Shown: piece by piece, positions 44,708-53,135 of the stretch
How the letters are laid out: each line of letters begins with the position of its first letter
Numbering within the stretch: the first letter of the stretch is position 1
Source: Sphingobacteriaceae bacterium
GTDB lineage: Bacteria > Bacteroidota > Bacteroidia > Sphingobacteriales > Sphingobacteriaceae
Reading direction: 5' to 3'
Length of the DNA: 64,000 nucleotides
NCBI GenBank assembly: GCA_947463785.1
Contig: CANHRG010000003.1
Span: 186,001-250,000 of the forward strand
Notes under the pieces: generated by a model
The model's input: only the letters and a program-made list of their open reading frames with translations
Databases searched by the model: none
What the model was told of the DNA's origin: nothing
Made by a program: the position numbers and the translations under genes

Positions 44708-46192
44708 TTAATTATATCCTGGGTTTTGAGCTAAACCAGAGATATCTACTTCTGCCTGTGGAATAGGGAACAATTCATTCTTGCCTACCACAAAGCCCGT
44801 AATCTTAGCGGCTGCTTGTCCGGTACGTACCAAGTCGAAGAATCGATGACCCTCCATGGCTAATTCCAATCTACGCTCATCCCAAATAGCCTGACGAAGT
44901 GTTGTTCCGGTAGCAGTAATATCATGGTTATTATCGCCGAAAGCACGTCTACGTACTCTGTTCAAGTAATCTTGAGCCTTAGCATCATTTGGTGTAGTGG
45001 CACGGTTATTTGCCTCAGCAGCCATCAACAATACATCAGCAAAACGGATAGCTCTGTAATTATTCAGGTAATTAAGCTCAACCTGACCAGAAGTTTGACC
45101 ATTTCTAGGTTGGTACTTCTGATTGTAAAGACCCGTGTTTTTATAAGGAGCTACCTTATACGTAATATTAAACGACGGATTGGCTGTCTTGTAGGCTTCA
45201 ATATCCAATATGGTTACAGCTTTACGGGTATCACCAGCTGCATAAGCAGCAGCAAGATTAGCCGTTGGTAAATTCGAGCTCCAACCAGATGCATACGGAC
45301 TGCTACCGGTTAAATTACGGATACCACAAATTTGTACAGCTAAATTTCCCTGTCCTCTGCCCGGATTAGACCAATCATAGAAAGGGTTATTGTTTGAATA
45401 CTGTACTTCAAAAACAGATTCCGGTCCATTTTCACCAGTGGCTAAGAAAATATCATTGAAATTAGTTACCAAGCTAAATGGCCCATTAACTACATTCTCC
45501 AACATGGCAGCTGCCAAAGTAAACTTATCCTGATACAGATAAACCTTACCCAATAGCGCCTGAGCCGCAAACTTAGTAACTCTTCCTTTTTGCGGATTGC
45601 TTAAAGGTAAAGCTGCGATGGCAGCAAGCAAGTCTTTCTCAATTTGCTCGTATACCTTTTCTTTGGTAGCACGCTGAATTTTTTGCGAATCACCAACCGA
45701 TAAGCGCTTGTCTACAAACAAAGGTACACCGCCAAACATTTTTACCAACTCAAAATAATAGTAGGCTCTTAAAAAATAAACCTCACCATACAAGGCAGCT
45801 TTACCGGTAAAGTCCAGCTTGCTTTTATTTTCTTCTAAATAGTTGGCCCGGTTAATTCCTTCATAACACGCTTTCCAAGATTCAGTAAGGTATGAGTTAT
45901 TAGCCTTAAGCTGATAATCATCAATTTCCTGCATTCCTAACTGGTCAGTTGCATTTTCTCCTCCACTAACCGAATTGTCTGAGGCTACATCTCCAATTAC
46001 AGGATTGGCCCATAGCCATTGCATAGGAGAATAAACACCAATGGTTAATTTCTGATAATCATCGGCTGTTTTAAAATAACTATCAGCAGTTACCTGATAA
46101 TCTTCCTTAGGATTGTATTCCACAAATTTTTCGCAACTCAAACTCAAAGATGTTGCTAAAAATAATCCTATTATATAAGTGTACTTTTTCAT
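44708..46192 (-). CDS. susD: SusD-family glycan-binding lipoprotein
   Basis: 494 aa. Lipobox SLSLSC at residues ~13-18. Helical TPR-like core, the RAYYYFELVKMFGGVPL motif and the C-terminal DERRLELAMEGHRFFDLVRTG block identify SusD/RagB. It forms the lid of the SusC transporter and binds the polysaccharide. The start MKKYTYIIGL was chosen because it opens a proper signal peptide; the longer frame runs into susC. Confidence 0.95.
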   Translation of the reverse strand: MKKYTYIIGLFLATSLSLSCEKFVEYNPKEDYQVTADSYFKTADDYQKLTIGVYSPMQWLWANPVIGDVASDNSVSGGENATDQLGMQEIDDYQLKANNSYLTESWKACYEGINRANYLEENKSKLDFTGKAALYGEVYFLRAYYYFELVKMFGGVPLFVDKRLSVGDSQKIQRATKEKVYEQIEKDLLAAIAALPLSNPQKGRVTKFAAQALLGKVYLYQDKFTLAAAMLENVVNGPFSLVTNFNDIFLATGENGPESVFEVQYSNNNPFYDWSNPGRGQGNLAVQICGIRNLTGSSPYASGWSSNLPTANLAAAYAAGDTRKAVTILDIEAYKTANPSFNITYKVAPYKNTGLYNQKYQPRNGQTSGQVELNYLNNYRAIRFADVLLMAAEANNRATTPNDAKAQDYLNRVRRRAFGDNNHDITATGTTLRQAIWDERRLELAMEGHRFFDLVRTGQAAAKITGFVVGKNELFPIPQAEVDISGLAQNPGYN

Positions 46193-46211
46193 TTCAATTT
46201 CTTTAAGTGAC

Positions 46212-49200
46212 TTAGAATTTAACATCGACCCCAAATGACCAAGTACGGGCTTGAGGATAAGAACCACGATCAATACCCGTATCAAAAATTCCTCCTGATA
46301 TCTCTGGGTCAAAACCTGAGTATTTAGTAAATGTGAAAGCATTCTTCACCTGTGCATACAGTCTGATTTTGCTTACGCCCATACGTTTAATAAGGCTTGA
46401 TGGAAGCGTATAACCCAATTGCACATCCTTTATTTTCACAAATGAACCATCTTCCACATAGCGGTCAGATACCCGATTGTTTTGATTGGCATCAATAAAA
46501 CTATAGCGTGGGTTACGAGCATCATTCGTGCTACCCTCACCAGTCCAACGAGCAAGCACACCACGATACTTATTGGTCATCGCCAAATTACGCTCGTAAG
46601 CTCGGTAAATATCGTTACCAATAGAAGCATAAATAAAGGTGTTAAAATCAAAAGCTTTGTAAGTAAGGTTTAAACCCCAACCCATAGTAAAGTCTGGGAA
46701 CGGGTCACCAATTTTGGTTCTATCCAAATCGGAGATTTTTCCGTCACCATTAATATCCACAAAACGAATATCACCAGGTACCGCATCTGTTTGCGTAGGT
46801 GCAGCAGCAATTTCAGCCATATTCTGGAACAAGCCCATGGTTTTAAATCCATAGAAGTATCCAGGAGTAAAGCCTTTCTCAAAACGCGTTACACTTTGGT
46901 ACGGAATACCATAACCACCACCGGTAATTAAACCATTATTGGTTTCGGTAACCTCATTTTGCGCAGTAGTAAAGGTCAGGTTTGAACTTACTTTCCAATT
47001 ACGACCTAAGGCATTGCTATAACCTAAATTCAAGTCAATACCCTTGGTCTCTGTAGTACCAATATTGGCAGTCGGTGCCGCAGCTGTACCTAAGTACAAG
47101 GATAAGCTTGGAGTAAATAACAACCCGCTGATTTTCTTCTCAAAATAATCCGCACTCAGCGAGAACTTATTTTTCATAAAAGTTATGTCAAAACCAGCAT
47201 TCAACTGTTCTTGCTTTTCCCAACCCAAATCGTCATTTCTGAACGAAGCAATAGTAGCTCCAATAGAAGTCGGGTCGTTACCAAAAGTATAACCCGCATT
47301 TTGACCTAAACCGTAGCTGTAAATCTGATTTGAGATCCGTTGAAACTGAGGGTTCACATTTTCGTTACCGGTAATACCGTAACTACCTCTAATCTTGAAA
47401 TAATTGATAAAGTCAGACTTAAAGAAGTCTTCATCAGAAACAACCCATCCTAATGAACCCGCATAAAAATTCGCGAATTTATTATTGATACCAAACGCAA
47501 ACGAACCATCTCTTCTTGCAGAGAAAGACAACAAGTATTTATCCTTGTAGTCGTAATCCAATCTCGAGAAGAAAGAAAGGTTTCTACGCTCATACTGATA
47601 AGAACCCAGATCTAAACCTGAATTCGCAGCCGTTCCAGTTGCCGACGAAATATCTGCATACTCCCAAGAATTAAAAGGCACATCCTGTCTGGTTCCACTA
47701 ACCGAATTACCGGTCACCTTAGCCATAGAGAAACCAAACACCGTTTCAAAATTGTGTACATCATTAATTTTGAAATTGTAATTACCAAAATTCTCAAAAG
47801 TGTAATTGTAGTACGAAGTCTTATACTCATACACACTGTTATGCGCTCCAGTTTTGGCAGAACCATCAGCATTCAAAGTAGAGTTGATGTGGCCTGCACC
47901 ATAAAAAGAGAGTGGCGTAAAGCTTTTACCAGTAACATCCACATTGGTATAACCATAACGAGAAGTAAGCTTTAAATTCTTTAACAACTGGTATTGCATC
48001 TCCAACTTACCATACAATTTCTTCGTATTAGATTTGTTGTACGTATCCTCCAATTGAGTTAATGGATTAAAGATTTCAGATAAGATGGTATTACTTACCC
48101 CATATTTTCCATACACTCCCGGAACAGTGTTGAATACCGGAACCGTAGGATCGAAATTCAACGCATTAGAAATAACACTGTTAATCGAGTTTTCAGGTAC
48201 ACCCGCACCGCGTATGTTCACAAAACTGGTATTGGCAATAAATTTAACTTTACTGCTCATATCAAAATTTAAGTTTGCAGTACCATTGTAACGGTCAAAA
48301 TAAGACTTGTTTTTGCCACCAACAATACCACCCTGGCCAAGGTATCCTCCAGAAATAAAATAACCCATGTTTCCGCTTCCACCCTTTGCAGTAAGTGTTT
48401 GAGAACTAATAGGCGCATTTTTAAAAATTTGATCCTGCCAATTAGTGCCTTTTCCAAGAGCAGAAAGATCAGGGAAAATAACAGCACCACCAGAAGCCAC
48501 ACTACCTTCGTTTACAATAGCTGCATACTCGGTAGCATTCAAAACACCAATAGTGCTCATTACTTGTTGCGTACCGTAGTTGGCTCCATAAGTTACTTCA
48601 GTTTGCTGATTCTTTTTCCCACTCTTCGTAGTAATAACAATCACCCCATTACCCCCTTTCACTCCATAAATAGCGGTAGTTGCAGCATCCTTCAATACGT
48701 TTACCGATTCAATATCAGCCGCATTAATAGAGTTCAGGTCATCTAAACTTTGGATAGAACCATCCACAATAACCACAGGATCTGTACCGGTGTAAGAAGG
48801 AATACCCCTAATCAATACCGTAGGTTTAGCACCTGGAGATCCCGGAGAAATAACCGTTACCCCCGATGCCCTACCCTGTAAAGCATCCTCGGCACGTACC
48901 GGTCTTAGTTTCTCAATGTCCTCACCCTTAACCGTTGAGATAGCCCCAGAAACCTTGGTGATTTTTTGTGTGCCATAACCCAGCACCACAACTTCATCCA
49001 TCACATTAGCAAAATCACTTAAAATCACTTCAATGCTCCCGGCATTTACAACCGTATAACGATACGGCTGCATACCTGTAAACGTGAAGCTCAGCGTACT
49101 ACCCTTAGCAGCGCTGATAGAAAATTTACCATTTGCATCGGTCTGCAGGACAGTCGAAGTCCCCACAACGCTAACTGTTGCACCCGGTAGGGGTTCTGAT

Positions 49201-49310
49201 GTAGACTTACTTTTAACCACACCCGAAACCGTCAGAGTTTGAGCAGCCAGGTGAGTGCCATAAAAAGCAAAAAGTAAGCTAATACAAAACAACTTGAATG
49301 TAAGTTTCAT
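46212..49310 (-). CDS. susC: SusC/RagA-family TonB-dependent transporter
   Basis: 1032 aa. Signal peptide, a carboxypeptidase-regulatory-like domain at ~25-105 (VSGVVKSKSTSEPLPGATVSVVGTSTVLQTDANGKFSI), a TonB-box-like MDEVVVLGYGTQ, a plug domain with LRPVRAEDALQGRASGV and IRGIPSYTGTDPVVIVDG, and a 22-strand barrel ending in SFGVDVKF. It imports oligosaccharides with SusD using TonB energy. First gene of the minus-strand glucan operon. Confidence 0.96.
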   Translation of the reverse strand: MKLTFKLFCISLLFAFYGTHLAAQTLTVSGVVKSKSTSEPLPGATVSVVGTSTVLQTDANGKFSISAAKGSTLSFTFTGMQPYRYTVVNAGSIEVILSDFANVMDEVVVLGYGTQKITKVSGAISTVKGEDIEKLRPVRAEDALQGRASGVTVISPGSPGAKPTVLIRGIPSYTGTDPVVIVDGSIQSLDDLNSINAADIESVNVLKDAATTAIYGVKGGNGVIVITTKSGKKNQQTEVTYGANYGTQQVMSTIGVLNATEYAAIVNEGSVASGGAVIFPDLSALGKGTNWQDQIFKNAPISSQTLTAKGGSGNMGYFISGGYLGQGGIVGGKNKSYFDRYNGTANLNFDMSSKVKFIANTSFVNIRGAGVPENSINSVISNALNFDPTVPVFNTVPGVYGKYGVSNTILSEIFNPLTQLEDTYNKSNTKKLYGKLEMQYQLLKNLKLTSRYGYTNVDVTGKSFTPLSFYGAGHINSTLNADGSAKTGAHNSVYEYKTSYYNYTFENFGNYNFKINDVHNFETVFGFSMAKVTGNSVSGTRQDVPFNSWEYADISSATGTAANSGLDLGSYQYERRNLSFFSRLDYDYKDKYLLSFSARRDGSFAFGINNKFANFYAGSLGWVVSDEDFFKSDFINYFKIRGSYGITGNENVNPQFQRISNQIYSYGLGQNAGYTFGNDPTSIGATIASFRNDDLGWEKQEQLNAGFDITFMKNKFSLSADYFEKKISGLLFTPSLSLYLGTAAAPTANIGTTETKGIDLNLGYSNALGRNWKVSSNLTFTTAQNEVTETNNGLITGGGYGIPYQSVTRFEKGFTPGYFYGFKTMGLFQNMAEIAAAPTQTDAVPGDIRFVDINGDGKISDLDRTKIGDPFPDFTMGWGLNLTYKAFDFNTFIYASIGNDIYRAYERNLAMTNKYRGVLARWTGEGSTNDARNPRYSFIDANQNNRVSDRYVEDGSFVKIKDVQLGYTLPSSLIKRMGVSKIRLYAQVKNAFTFTKYSGFDPEISGGIFDTGIDRGSYPQARTWSFGVDVKF

Positions 49311-49390
49311 ATTGTACTTGTTTTTGGTGAAATAAAATGTGTGTTAGTAATTAAAATTTATAATTGGTTAAATCAAAAATGAGCATAAGC

Positions 49391-49485
49391 ACTACATCAT
49401 CACAAATAAAGTACTACATCAATACTACATCAATTGATTTAAATGCCTGATTTTTAGTGTAGTTTTATACTACAACACTACATCT
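49391..49485. promoter_or_regulatory. ACTACATCA direct repeats in the divergent susC/regulator promoter region
   Basis: ACTACATCA occurs at 49391-49399, 49413-49421 and 49424-49432 (spacings 22 and 11 bp), with ACTACATCT at 49477-49485. An inverted pair TGTAGT (49458-49463) / ACTACA (49469-49474) lies between. The spacing close to one or two helical turns suggests a protein-binding array, most simply for the adjacent LuxR-type regulator. Confidence 0.65.
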
Positions 49486-49490
49486 AAAAA

Positions 49491-49521
49491 TTGTGTATAC
49501 TTACACAAACAGGTAAATTTG
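49491..49521 (+). promoter_or_regulatory. Promoter of the glucan-locus regulator
   Basis: TTG (49491-49493) and TAAATTTG (49514-49521, exact TAnnTTTG) are 20 bp apart. The ATG follows the -7 box after only 7 bp, so the predicted transcript has almost no leader. Confidence 0.6.
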
Positions 49522-49528
49522 AGTAGCT

Positions 49529-52417
49529 ATGAAAAAATTACTGCTGATTATTTTACTTCCACTACAACTCTTCGGGCAAAACACCATTGGCCTACCCGAG
49601 ATTGTAAACTATCCCAAAGACTGGTACAAGGCCGGTCTACAAAACTGGGATATTAAACAAGACCAGCAAGGTATCATCTATTTTGCCAATAACGAAGGAA
49701 TGCTCACATTCGACGGAAATTATTGGAACCTTTTCCCACTACCCAATAAAACAATCGTTCGCTCGCTCGAAATCAGTACAGACGGAAAAATTTATGTAGG
49801 CGGCCAAGATGAACTAGGCTATTTCTTACCCGATAATCGTGGAGTACTCAAATACCACAATCTTGTCAATACCATAGCACCCAAAGACCGCTCATTCGGC
49901 GATGTATGGGATATCGTATCCTTCAAAAACCACGTATTCTTTCGTACAAACAACAAACTATTCAAACTCACCAACAACAAAATACAAACCTACTACCCCC
50001 AATCAGAATGGACTTTTCTGGGCAAATCGGGCGAAACCCTACTCGCACACGATAACAGTACCGGACTCATGCAATTCGAAGATAATGCATGGCTAAGCAC
50101 CAACAATCAGTTGGCACTACCCAAAACAGCAATACCAACAGCATGCCTGGCCATAACTAACAACAGCATCCTAGTCACAACACTAAAACACGGTTTATTC
50201 GTATTAAAACCAACAGGCATTTTTCCATTTGCAAGCCAACAAAAAAGCCTTTTTCAAAACGAACGAATTTACTCGGCAGCCAAAATCAACCAAAACCACT
50301 TGGCCATAGCAACAAGTAACGGAGGGCTCTACATCTTAAATATTGCAGGAGATATCATACAAACATTCTCAAAAAGAGAAGGATTGCAAAACAACAACAT
50401 CCTCAGTGTTTTTACCGATCATCAAAAAAATTTGTGGTTAGGTATGGATACAGGGATCGATTTCGTGGCCTACGACAGTGCCATCAAGCAAATCAACCCC
50501 TTCTTACTCGACGCATCCGGGTATACCGCCATGGTCTACCAAAATAAGCTCTGGCTCGGTACCTCCAACGGTCTATACAACGTTGCTTTGCAAAACCTGA
50601 ACGACATCAGCTTTACCAAAGGCAACTTTACAACAGTTAACAACACCAAAGGCCAAACCTGGGGTTTGGCAAAAATCAACAATCAATTATTACTCGGCCA
50701 CCACGAAGGCGCCTTTATCCTACAAAACAACCAGGCAAAACAACTAGCAGGAAACAGTGGCTTTTGGAACTTTATTGCCCGATCAACCACCAAACCAAGC
50801 AATGAAATTATAGCAGGAACTTACAGTGGTTTAGCTGTGTTCAATACCTCAAAAGGTTTACCTCAGTTTCAGGAAGAAATTCCCGGATTCAAAGAATCAT
50901 CCCGTTTTTTAACTACAGATTCAGAAGGCCGAATTTGGGTATCACACCCCTACCATGGAGTCTATAAAATCGAAAAAAATAAATCAGGAAAATACACAAG
51001 CAAAAGTTACGGTAAAAAAGAAGGACTCCCATCTAACGTAAATAACCACGTCTATAAAATAAATAACGAAATTGTAATTGCTACCGAAGCAGGAATCTAC
51101 CAGTACCAAGCAGCCAAAGATCAATTTAACACAGCCCAATATTACAACAATCTACTAGGCAACAAAAGCATACGCTACCTCAAAGAAGACGATTATGGCA
51201 ACGTCTGGTTCATACAAGAAAAAGCAATTGGCGTAATCGATAAATCAGGCGCAAAATCACAAGTGCTCTATTTCCCCGAGTTAACCAATAAACTCCTCAG
51301 CGGATTCGAATTGATCTACCCAATTAATATGCAAAACATCATCCTATCAGGCGAAAAAGGATTCTTCAATGTCAACTTTCAAAAATACAAAGCCAATATC
51401 CCCAAACTAAGCGTGCAACTACGGCGAGTATTAATAGGCAACCAAAAAGACAGCACCATATTTGGCGGATATTACCGAACATTAACCAGCAAACAACAAC
51501 AAACCGAAAAAGATATACTCGAAATTCCAAGCCATTGGGAAACCATACGTTTTGAATTCTCCTCAACAATATTCAACAACAAATCCATACTCGAATATTC
51601 CTACCGACTAAAAGGATTAACTAAAGAATGGTCTGAATGGACAAAAAGAACCGAAAAAGAATTTACCACCCTGCCTGCAAATTCCTACACATTCGAAGTA
51701 AAAGTCAGGAATAATTTAGGAAACGAGTCACCCCCTGCCACTTACCGCTTCGAGGTACTACCACCCTGGTACCTAACATCTTGGATGAAATCCATTTATG
51801 CAGCCCTATTAATTGCAGGAATAGTATTCGTAAACCGTTGGAACAAACGCAAATTGCAGATGCAACAAGCCCGCCACGAAGAAGAACAAGAAAAATTAAA
51901 ATACATACACGATCTAGAATTAAGCAAAAGCGAGAACGAACTCGTGCTACTCAGAAACCAAAAACTAGAAGCAGAAATAAACCTCATGAACTCCGAGCTA
52001 GCCTCATCAGCCATGCACCTCGTAAAAAAAGGAGAGCTACTCACAAAAAGTAAAGAAGAACTCAGCAAAGTGTTACGCGTAGTAGAACACCCCGAAGCAA
52101 TTTCAGAACTCAAAAAAATGATGCGAAACCTGAACGAGGACGAAAAAATGGACAAAGAGTGGGAAAACTTCTCCAGACATTTCGATAAAGTACACAGCGA
52201 TTTCCTTTCCGCATTAAAAACAAAACACCCATCCATCACGCAAAACGAATTAAAACTGTGTGCTTACCTCCGAATGAATTTATCTACCAAAGAAATTGCC
52301 CAATTAACCAGCATTTCGGTCAGAGGTGTAGAAATTAGCCGCTACAGGCTCCGAAAAAAACTGCAAATACCAAGCGAAACAAACTTAGTAGACTACCTGA
52401 TCACGTTTAAATACTAA
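49529..52417 (+). CDS. Membrane-spanning transcription regulator: beta-propeller, Y_Y_Y domain, LuxR-type HTH
   Basis: 962 aa. Signal peptide (LLLIILLPLQLFGQ), about 14 propeller blades with the two-component-propeller pattern (e.g. LWLGMDTGIDFVAY, NLWLG, GRIWVSHPYHGVYKI) over residues ~30-620, a Y_Y_Y beta domain ending in YTFEVKVRNNLGNESPPATYRFEVLPPWYLT, one membrane segment (SIYAALLIAGIVFVNRW), a charged coiled coil, and a C-terminal HTH (LKLCAYLRMNLSTKEIAQLTSISVRGVEISRYRLRKKL). It has no kinase or receiver domain, so a periplasmic glycan signal would reach DNA directly. It is divergent from susC and probably controls the locus. Confidence 0.9.
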   Translation: MKKLLLIILLPLQLFGQNTIGLPEIVNYPKDWYKAGLQNWDIKQDQQGIIYFANNEGMLTFDGNYWNLFPLPNKTIVRSLEISTDGKIYVGGQDELGYFLPDNRGVLKYHNLVNTIAPKDRSFGDVWDIVSFKNHVFFRTNNKLFKLTNNKIQTYYPQSEWTFLGKSGETLLAHDNSTGLMQFEDNAWLSTNNQLALPKTAIPTACLAITNNSILVTTLKHGLFVLKPTGIFPFASQQKSLFQNERIYSAAKINQNHLAIATSNGGLYILNIAGDIIQTFSKREGLQNNNILSVFTDHQKNLWLGMDTGIDFVAYDSAIKQINPFLLDASGYTAMVYQNKLWLGTSNGLYNVALQNLNDISFTKGNFTTVNNTKGQTWGLAKINNQLLLGHHEGAFILQNNQAKQLAGNSGFWNFIARSTTKPSNEIIAGTYSGLAVFNTSKGLPQFQEEIPGFKESSRFLTTDSEGRIWVSHPYHGVYKIEKNKSGKYTSKSYGKKEGLPSNVNNHVYKINNEIVIATEAGIYQYQAAKDQFNTAQYYNNLLGNKSIRYLKEDDYGNVWFIQEKAIGVIDKSGAKSQVLYFPELTNKLLSGFELIYPINMQNIILSGEKGFFNVNFQKYKANIPKLSVQLRRVLIGNQKDSTIFGGYYRTLTSKQQQTEKDILEIPSHWETIRFEFSSTIFNNKSILEYSYRLKGLTKEWSEWTKRTEKEFTTLPANSYTFEVKVRNNLGNESPPATYRFEVLPPWYLTSWMKSIYAALLIAGIVFVNRWNKRKLQMQQARHEEEQEKLKYIHDLELSKSENELVLLRNQKLEAEINLMNSELASSAMHLVKKGELLTKSKEELSKVLRVVEHPEAISELKKMMRNLNEDEKMDKEWENFSRHFDKVHSDFLSALKTKHPSITQNELKLCAYLRMNLSTKEIAQLTSISVRGVEISRYRLRKKLQIPSETNLVDYLITFKY

Positions 52418-52472: not shown

Positions 52473-52739
52473 GCTAAAATCAACACAAATGTTCCGCACT
52501 TTAGCACAATTAATCTGTAATTCTACTTTCCAATACCGGTAAGTTGCATAAGTAGCCCGCACAAACACATCTGCAATTCGTAACACAGCACAACACATCC
52601 GCACAATTGTCTACCAGTTTCGATAATCCGCACAGCTAACCCGCTAATTCGCATAACCTGTGCGCACAACCGCATACCACATCCGCACAGTCGCACCTGT
52701 AAAAGGCACACCCGCACAATAAGGAAGCACACTGCAACG
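52473..52739. repeat. 21-bp degenerate tandem array with two boxes per unit
   Basis: Counting from 52494 every 21 bp, boxes CCGCACT, CCGGTAA, CCGCACA, CCGCACA, CCGCTAA, GCGCACA, CCGCACA, AGGCACA and AAGCACA start at 52494, 52536, 52557, 52599, 52641, 52662, 52683, 52704 and 52725. A second series of boxes shifted by 8 bp starts at 52502 (TAGCACA), 52544 (TTGCATA), 52586 (CAGCACA), 52628 (CCGCACA), 52649 (TCGCATA), 52670 (CCGCATA), 52691 (TCGCACC) and 52712 (CCGCACA). That is about 12 units. 21 bp equals two helical turns, so all boxes of one series face the same side. The array fills the 349-bp gap before an HTH gene. Stop codons interrupt the plus strand, and it is not a CRISPR. Confidence 0.85.
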
Positions 52740-52766
52740 TTTAAAACTAAAATCGACAAAACAGTT

Positions 52767-53135
52767 ATGATAAAGCTCAACCTAGGCCCGCTTTTTGAAG
52801 CCCGCGGCATCGAAAAACCCTACAGCTACCTGCTAAAGAAAGGAATACCACGTCATACTGCCCAACGCATCCTGAGCGGAGAGCATACCCAACTGCACTT
52901 TCGCCATGTAGAATTGCTCTGCAAAGTACTCAATTGCAGCCCCAACGATCTGTTCATCTACATTCCCAACAAAGAAGAACAACTACCCGAAAACCACCCG
53001 CTGCATCAACTCAAAAAAGAAAGCATTGGCTTCAATTGGTTGCAAAACACCGCAAACTTACCCATCAATCAACTCCAACAACTCATCCTACAAATCAAAA
53101 CGCAACTCGATCAAAGCCCGGAGCAACACCGCTAA
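52767..53135 (+). CDS. Small XRE-type helix-turn-helix protein
   Basis: 122 aa. Residues ~5-72 form a Cro/CI-like HTH: LGPLFEARGIEKPYSYLLKKGIPRHTAQRILSGEHTQLHFRHVELLCKVLNCSPNDLFIY. The C-terminal ~45 residues are polar and may be helical (NQLQQLILQIKTQL). Related small HTH proteins are frequent in Sphingobacteriaceae as I remember, with unknown targets. It lies 28 bp after the 21-bp array, so autoregulation through the array is a natural inference. No Shine-Dalgarno site is present. Confidence 0.82.
   Translation: MIKLNLGPLFEARGIEKPYSYLLKKGIPRHTAQRILSGEHTQLHFRHVELLCKVLNCSPNDLFIYIPNKEEQLPENHPLHQLKKESIGFNWLQNTANLPINQLQQLILQIKTQLDQSPEQHR

Follow-up and report, generated by a model that had tools for sequence, protein, structure and literature searches.

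A non-coding array of exactly 21-bp units lies directly upstream of a gene encoding a small helix-turn-helix (HTH) protein of the HTH_26 family in the window, the whole 64-kb stretch of Sphingobacteriaceae DNA that we analysed, and arrays with the same motif occur elsewhere in that genome. Judging from sequence comparisons, the array probably serves the downstream HTH_26 protein as a private landing strip of multiple sites; this protein would be autoregulatory and would have further, remote targets of the same motif. Overall, the interpretation given in an earlier sequence-only reading of this DNA was partly supported. The features are listed in the table.

Autocorrelation was performed on positions 52473–52739 and compared with 5000 dinucleotide-preserving shuffles, with p taken after the maximum over lags 2–89. 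Distinct peaks, clearly above the shuffled controls, were observed at lags 21 (z = 6.43), 42 (z = 6.81), 63 (z = 6.09), and 84 (z = 6.38), each with p≤0.0002. This bears out the earlier description of about 12 exact 21-bp units; the 12 in-register units span 52494–52745 and have a consensus of approximately CCGCACAnnTCGCAYAnCnnT. Across the 64-kb window, the score combining lags 21, 42, and 63 was 10.2 at the array compared to ≤4.9 anywhere else. Tandem Repeats Finder, the other check proposed in the earlier reading, did not report the window array even at score 30, although autocorrelation detects it, because the units are too diverged and only the boxes are kept. The proposed second box 8 bp further on was upheld only for the lineage of the window. 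Here, lags 13 (p = 0.03) and 29 (p = 0.01) were significant, and an 8-bp direct offset was found in the self-similarity of the unit PWM (p = 0.010 in the window, 0.07–0.12 in two orthologue arrays), but lag 8 alone was not significant (p = 0.45), and the offset is no general property of homologous arrays.

The word ACGTTTAA/ACGTTAA overlaps the last unit and is common to the three orthologous loci; 27 bp lie between position 52739 and the ATG at 52767. The window array adjoins its own HTH gene, and the promoter word TAnnTTTG, which is enriched after arrays in the family, was not found near it on the plus strand. As read from the sequences, the neighbours on this 328-kb contig are mlaE/mlaF-like and SusC/D-regulator genes. 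Positions 44708–52417 hold a SusC/SusD-type pair (minus strand) and a 962-aa two-component-like/LuxR-type regulator, the 3' end of which borders the array.

Table. Location of the arrays and associated genes in the window and in the remainder of its genome (G000).
Feature	Position	Strand	Remarks
21-bp phased array	52473..52745	+	units at 52494, 52515 ... 52725; one further degenerate unit at 52473
Short leader, array to start codon	52746..52766	+	
HTH protein gene, 122 aa, Cro/C1-type	52767..53135	+	ORF; Pfam PF13443; AF2 model; homologues
Remote array, sodA	C1:36.6k		after sodA; group A
Remote array, amidase	C1:98.1k		between amidase and M1 peptidase genes, convergent; 3' of amidase; group A
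Remote array, SprT	C1:395.4k		after SprT-like gene; group C
Remote array, ETGH	C2:136.1k		after ETGH gene; group B
Remote array, GNAT	C2:308.4k		after GNAT gene; group B
ETGH gene	G000:C2:135349-136077 (L113:15349-16080)		homologues L291-L320, L189-L198

The 122-aa protein matches PF13443 HTH_26 (E = 1.7e-8; 35 bits compared to a gathering cut-off of 22) and carries, in addition to this domain, a C-terminal helical extension of about 50 aa (AF2 pLDDT 84). The predicted recognition helix comprises residues 29–37. Among solved structures, only the HTH part is matched (SaPI2 Stl, CylR2), with a Cro-like fold. PHROGs and PADLOC returned nothing specific, and a first contig scan with the window protein as query found no relatives. 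The protein is the best candidate binder of the window array.

The HTH gene was found in two of the five other genomes of the genus. Upstream of both orthologues, a 21-bp array ends near the start codon (z 7–10 at lags 21 and 42), the unit sequences having drifted while the 21-bp pitch was kept. The genes mlaE/mlaF lie downstream of the HTH gene in three congeners, and the upstream genes differ between species. In the gene-less congener G003, mlaE is present and both the HTH gene and the array are missing upstream of it. Together with the arrays of most distant homologues, this joint presence and absence ties the array to the HTH gene, as had been suggested from the window alone.

When 395 genomes of the class were searched with a profile, about 45 clear homologue matches were obtained in 24 of them. 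In all fetched loci except L057, a fragmentary match, the best period among 12–44 bp was 21 (or 42), directly upstream. Near the partial homologue in G233 (L057:1975), a strong and possibly coding 33-bp periodicity was observed. Scanning a GTDB-based collection revealed relatives in Flavobacterium, Chryseobacterium, Epilithonimonas, Arcicella, Imperialibacter, and Acidobacteriota. About 60 distant homologues from Bacteroidota and Acidobacteriota (approximately 30% identity) have an exact 21-bp array just upstream, with a different unit sequence each time, so that the earlier claim that the spacing outlives the sequence is strongly confirmed by comparison with both orthologue and distant-homologue arrays. 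That most relatives own a 21-bp ladder in different letters suggests a private landing strip for each protein.

In named genomes, a strong array (z≥9, ≤900 bp upstream) occurs at 37 of 51 long-form HTH_26 loci, compared to 2 strong arrays elsewhere in 482 kb. About one quarter of the long-form loci have a weak array or none, some of those lacking a strong array showing a weak 21-bp signal. Short HTH_26 proteins, which came mostly from Firmicutes, had no array at any of their 29 loci, and none was found at the two loci checked of Moraxella plasmid relatives, which are also of the short form. The 65 arrays that we delimited have 8–19 units, unrelated consensus sequences, and a median distance of 60 bp to the start codon. 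This short gap, together with the random orientation of the neighbouring upstream gene (30 vs 29), indicates that the array follows the HTH gene. Between array and ATG, the Bacteroidota -7 motif TAnnTTTG occurs 12 times on the coding strand and 2 times on the other. All 11 pairs whose recognition helices are ≥80% identical retain motif similarity, which is mostly lost below an identity of about 60%. This correlation is confounded by common ancestry; C-terminal identity tracks motif similarity equally well over all pairs. Two variants were observed: in L222 (Acidobacteria), the HTH gene is followed by two additional 21-bp arrays, at +715 and +1208 counted from the start of the match, and fused homologues of about 220 aa (L084, L075, L077, L053) combine two tandem HTH_26 domains with one 21-bp array.

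Scanning 1.61 of the 1.81 Mb of the window's genome revealed five further non-coding 21-bp arrays, all away from any long-form HTH_26 homologue; the arrays are therefore not only autoregulatory. The genes beside them were named from the protein sequences, and the arrays were grouped by comparing unit profiles on both strands with column-permuted controls. The HTH, amidase, and sodA arrays have one common motif (group A). The amidase and sodA arrays are present in all three HTH-positive congeners and in none of the HTH-negative species wherever the locus was found. The earlier reading of the window array as an operator array is incomplete, because arrays of the same motif also lie far from the HTH gene, so that the window array would be more than an operator of its own promoter. 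Remote arrays sharing a motif in this way also occur near rplT in Flavobacterium sp. JAD_PAG50586_2 and at two places in G310.

Group B consists of the GNAT and ETGH arrays, with a within-genome similarity of 0.92 in G000 and 0.85 in G004. Their motif is GTGCAG-like in G000 and AGCGCAA-like in G004, having changed in concert at two unlinked loci, as would be expected if one sequence-specific factor acted on both. Proteins of the ETGH family, of about 250 aa and beginning with MASTSETGHAKN, are often encoded in multiple copies. They are unrelated to HTH_26 and gave no match in Pfam, NCBIfam, PHROG, or PDB. Of 35 distinct ETGH loci, 29 have a 21-bp array next to the gene, in most cases immediately downstream, and the two families co-occur (Fisher p = 4e-7, ignoring phylogeny and with the number of HTH-positive genomes in the smaller sample inferred indirectly). 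ETGH is thus probably an array-associated factor. Group C comprises the SprT-type arrays; G001 differs in that its SprT-locus array has the motif of its own ETGH array (similarity 0.96). One group C array was also found in G003, in a negative-control scan covering 0.8 Mb of that genome; neither long-form HTH_26 nor the ETGH family was detected there by these searches, and a third partner is likely to stand behind this type. The G003 array (L349:15290-15625; G003:C1 ~175.3 kb) has a z of 19.4 and a motif resembling that of the SprT-locus array of G005.

From these observations we infer that copies of the HTH_26 protein bind successive units of their own array. Since successive units are separated by exactly two helical turns, the bound copies would all face the same side of the DNA and could contact each other. 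The array beside the promoter of the HTH gene would then probably be filled cooperatively in a filament-like manner, leading to autoregulation, most likely repression. The group A arrays on the 3' sides of the amidase gene and sodA would be further targets of the same protein, acting as regulatory, bridging, or titrating sites. The spacing of 21 bp would be fixed by contact geometry, whereas the protein and its units could drift together in sequence to give a lineage-specific motif. More tentatively, the arrays may represent a previously unrecognised class of chromosomal recognition system in Bacteroidota and Acidobacteriota, in which long-form HTH_26 and ETGH proteins each own a private lattice of 21-bp pitch beside their gene and matching lattices elsewhere, protein and lattice co-evolving at invariant pitch.

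The arrays might instead mainly structure the chromosome, bridging or insulating in a centromere- or NAP-like manner, with HTH and ETGH proteins gathering several arrays and autoregulation being secondary. Same-motif arrays do occur at distant loci, three of the five remote arrays in the window's genome lie between convergent genes, where a promoter is unexpected, ETGH arrays are usually downstream of the gene and not at its promoter, and the concerted change of motif at the two group B loci, like the match between two arrays of G001, would fit as well. Yet only 2–3 same-motif arrays per genome are few for a structural role, and the HTH arrays systematically lie just before the HTH start codon. 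We regard this explanation as unlikely.

A selfish or mobile module, gene and array having spread as a unit and left the remote arrays as copies or relics, would account for the patchy distribution, for several paralogues per genome, and for the joint absence in G003. It is quite improbable given that the locus is the same in the three congeners, with its mlaE/mlaF neighbours, and that no mobility genes were seen beside the HTH gene or the array. Furthermore, none of 8 weak matches on viral contigs has an array, phage and plasmid records gave only weak and short HTH matches, and the boxes in remote arrays are conserved while the spacers randomise. Function as transcribed RNA, either small RNAs or a leader, has been suggested in print for 20–21/52-nt repeats (PMC8161180), but is very improbable here: 16 folds of 11 arrays displayed no consistent excess of structure (z between -1.9 and +1.4 except for a single value of -2.4), the arrays have no Rfam match, and the protein to which they are linked is a DNA-binding one of HTH type. 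An origin as coding heptad repeats, or by neutral duplication in tandem, is hardly credible. It is true that 21 bp equal 7 codons, that one frame is open in several of the arrays, and that the GNAT array of G005 and the G310 arrays are near-perfect recent duplications. However, full-length open frames are found in 58% of arrays compared to 48% of column-permuted ones with no codon-phase conservation, boxes are kept among random spacers, and the genome scan revealed no period other than multiples of three and, in non-coding DNA, only 21 (with 42).

Period-14/28 signals were discarded as arithmetic echoes of 42/84. Near-perfect homologous arrays exist at L046 and L245. The units of Flavobacterium arrays alternate as 42-bp higher-order repeats, indicating that arrays also turn over by duplication. 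At L326:1445-1690 and in the L224 upstream array, 42-bp repeats of two alternating 21-bp units were observed, comparable to eukaryotic satellite DNA.

A landing strip for the HTH_26 protein would in several respects resemble autoregulated XRE/Cro-type repressors, in which a small HTH protein with a Cro-like fold has its sites immediately in front of its own gene. Most XRE operators carry a dyad. In contrast, the arrays described here have 8–19 phased units without a palindrome (no excess of inverted symmetry, and no general direct repeat, was found inside the units of 65 arrays), as well as remote arrays of the same motif. Plasmid partition and replication iterons (ParR/parC, TubR/tubC, omega heptads) likewise consist of short sites in tandem that a small DNA-binding protein occupies, the equivalent here being a candidate. 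They differ in that our arrays have a chromosomal-type context, a 21-bp pitch, and no neighbouring motor, rep, or par gene; as rep/par neighbours are missing, the likeness to iterons drawn earlier is without support. The distinction from CRISPR made in the same reading holds, the 21-bp units keeping only short boxes and not near-identical repeats with unique spacers. BldC, a small MerR-like regulator described as forming head-to-tail oligomers on direct repeats of varying length (PMC5859096), is similar in being a small HTH regulator with asymmetric units in sites of varying length. It is MerR-like, however, and the abstract of that report mentions no 21-bp lattice; oligomerisation of the HTH_26 protein is putative.

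The closest counterparts are the bacterial 20–21-nt and 52-nt tandem repeats of Subirana and Messeguer (2021), constant in size and variable in sequence (PMC8161180). Their 20–21-nt repeats are non-coding, unconserved between species, and present as several families per genome, all of which applies to our arrays. The authors noted the two-helical-turn length, found no function or partner, and suggested an RNA role (PMC8161180). In the open-licence literature, we found no link to two protein families, no paired remote arrays, and no concerted motif change. The catalogued repeats were identified by similarity of unit sequence, whereas the window array is invisible to Tandem Repeats Finder, and our arrays, many of them too diverged for that program, have a unit of exactly 21 bp and are linked to two protein families. 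Repeats so far listed without function or partner thus gain candidate cognate proteins, to which the present analysis adds two-helical-turn geometry, remote target arrays, and within-genus contrasts of presence and absence.
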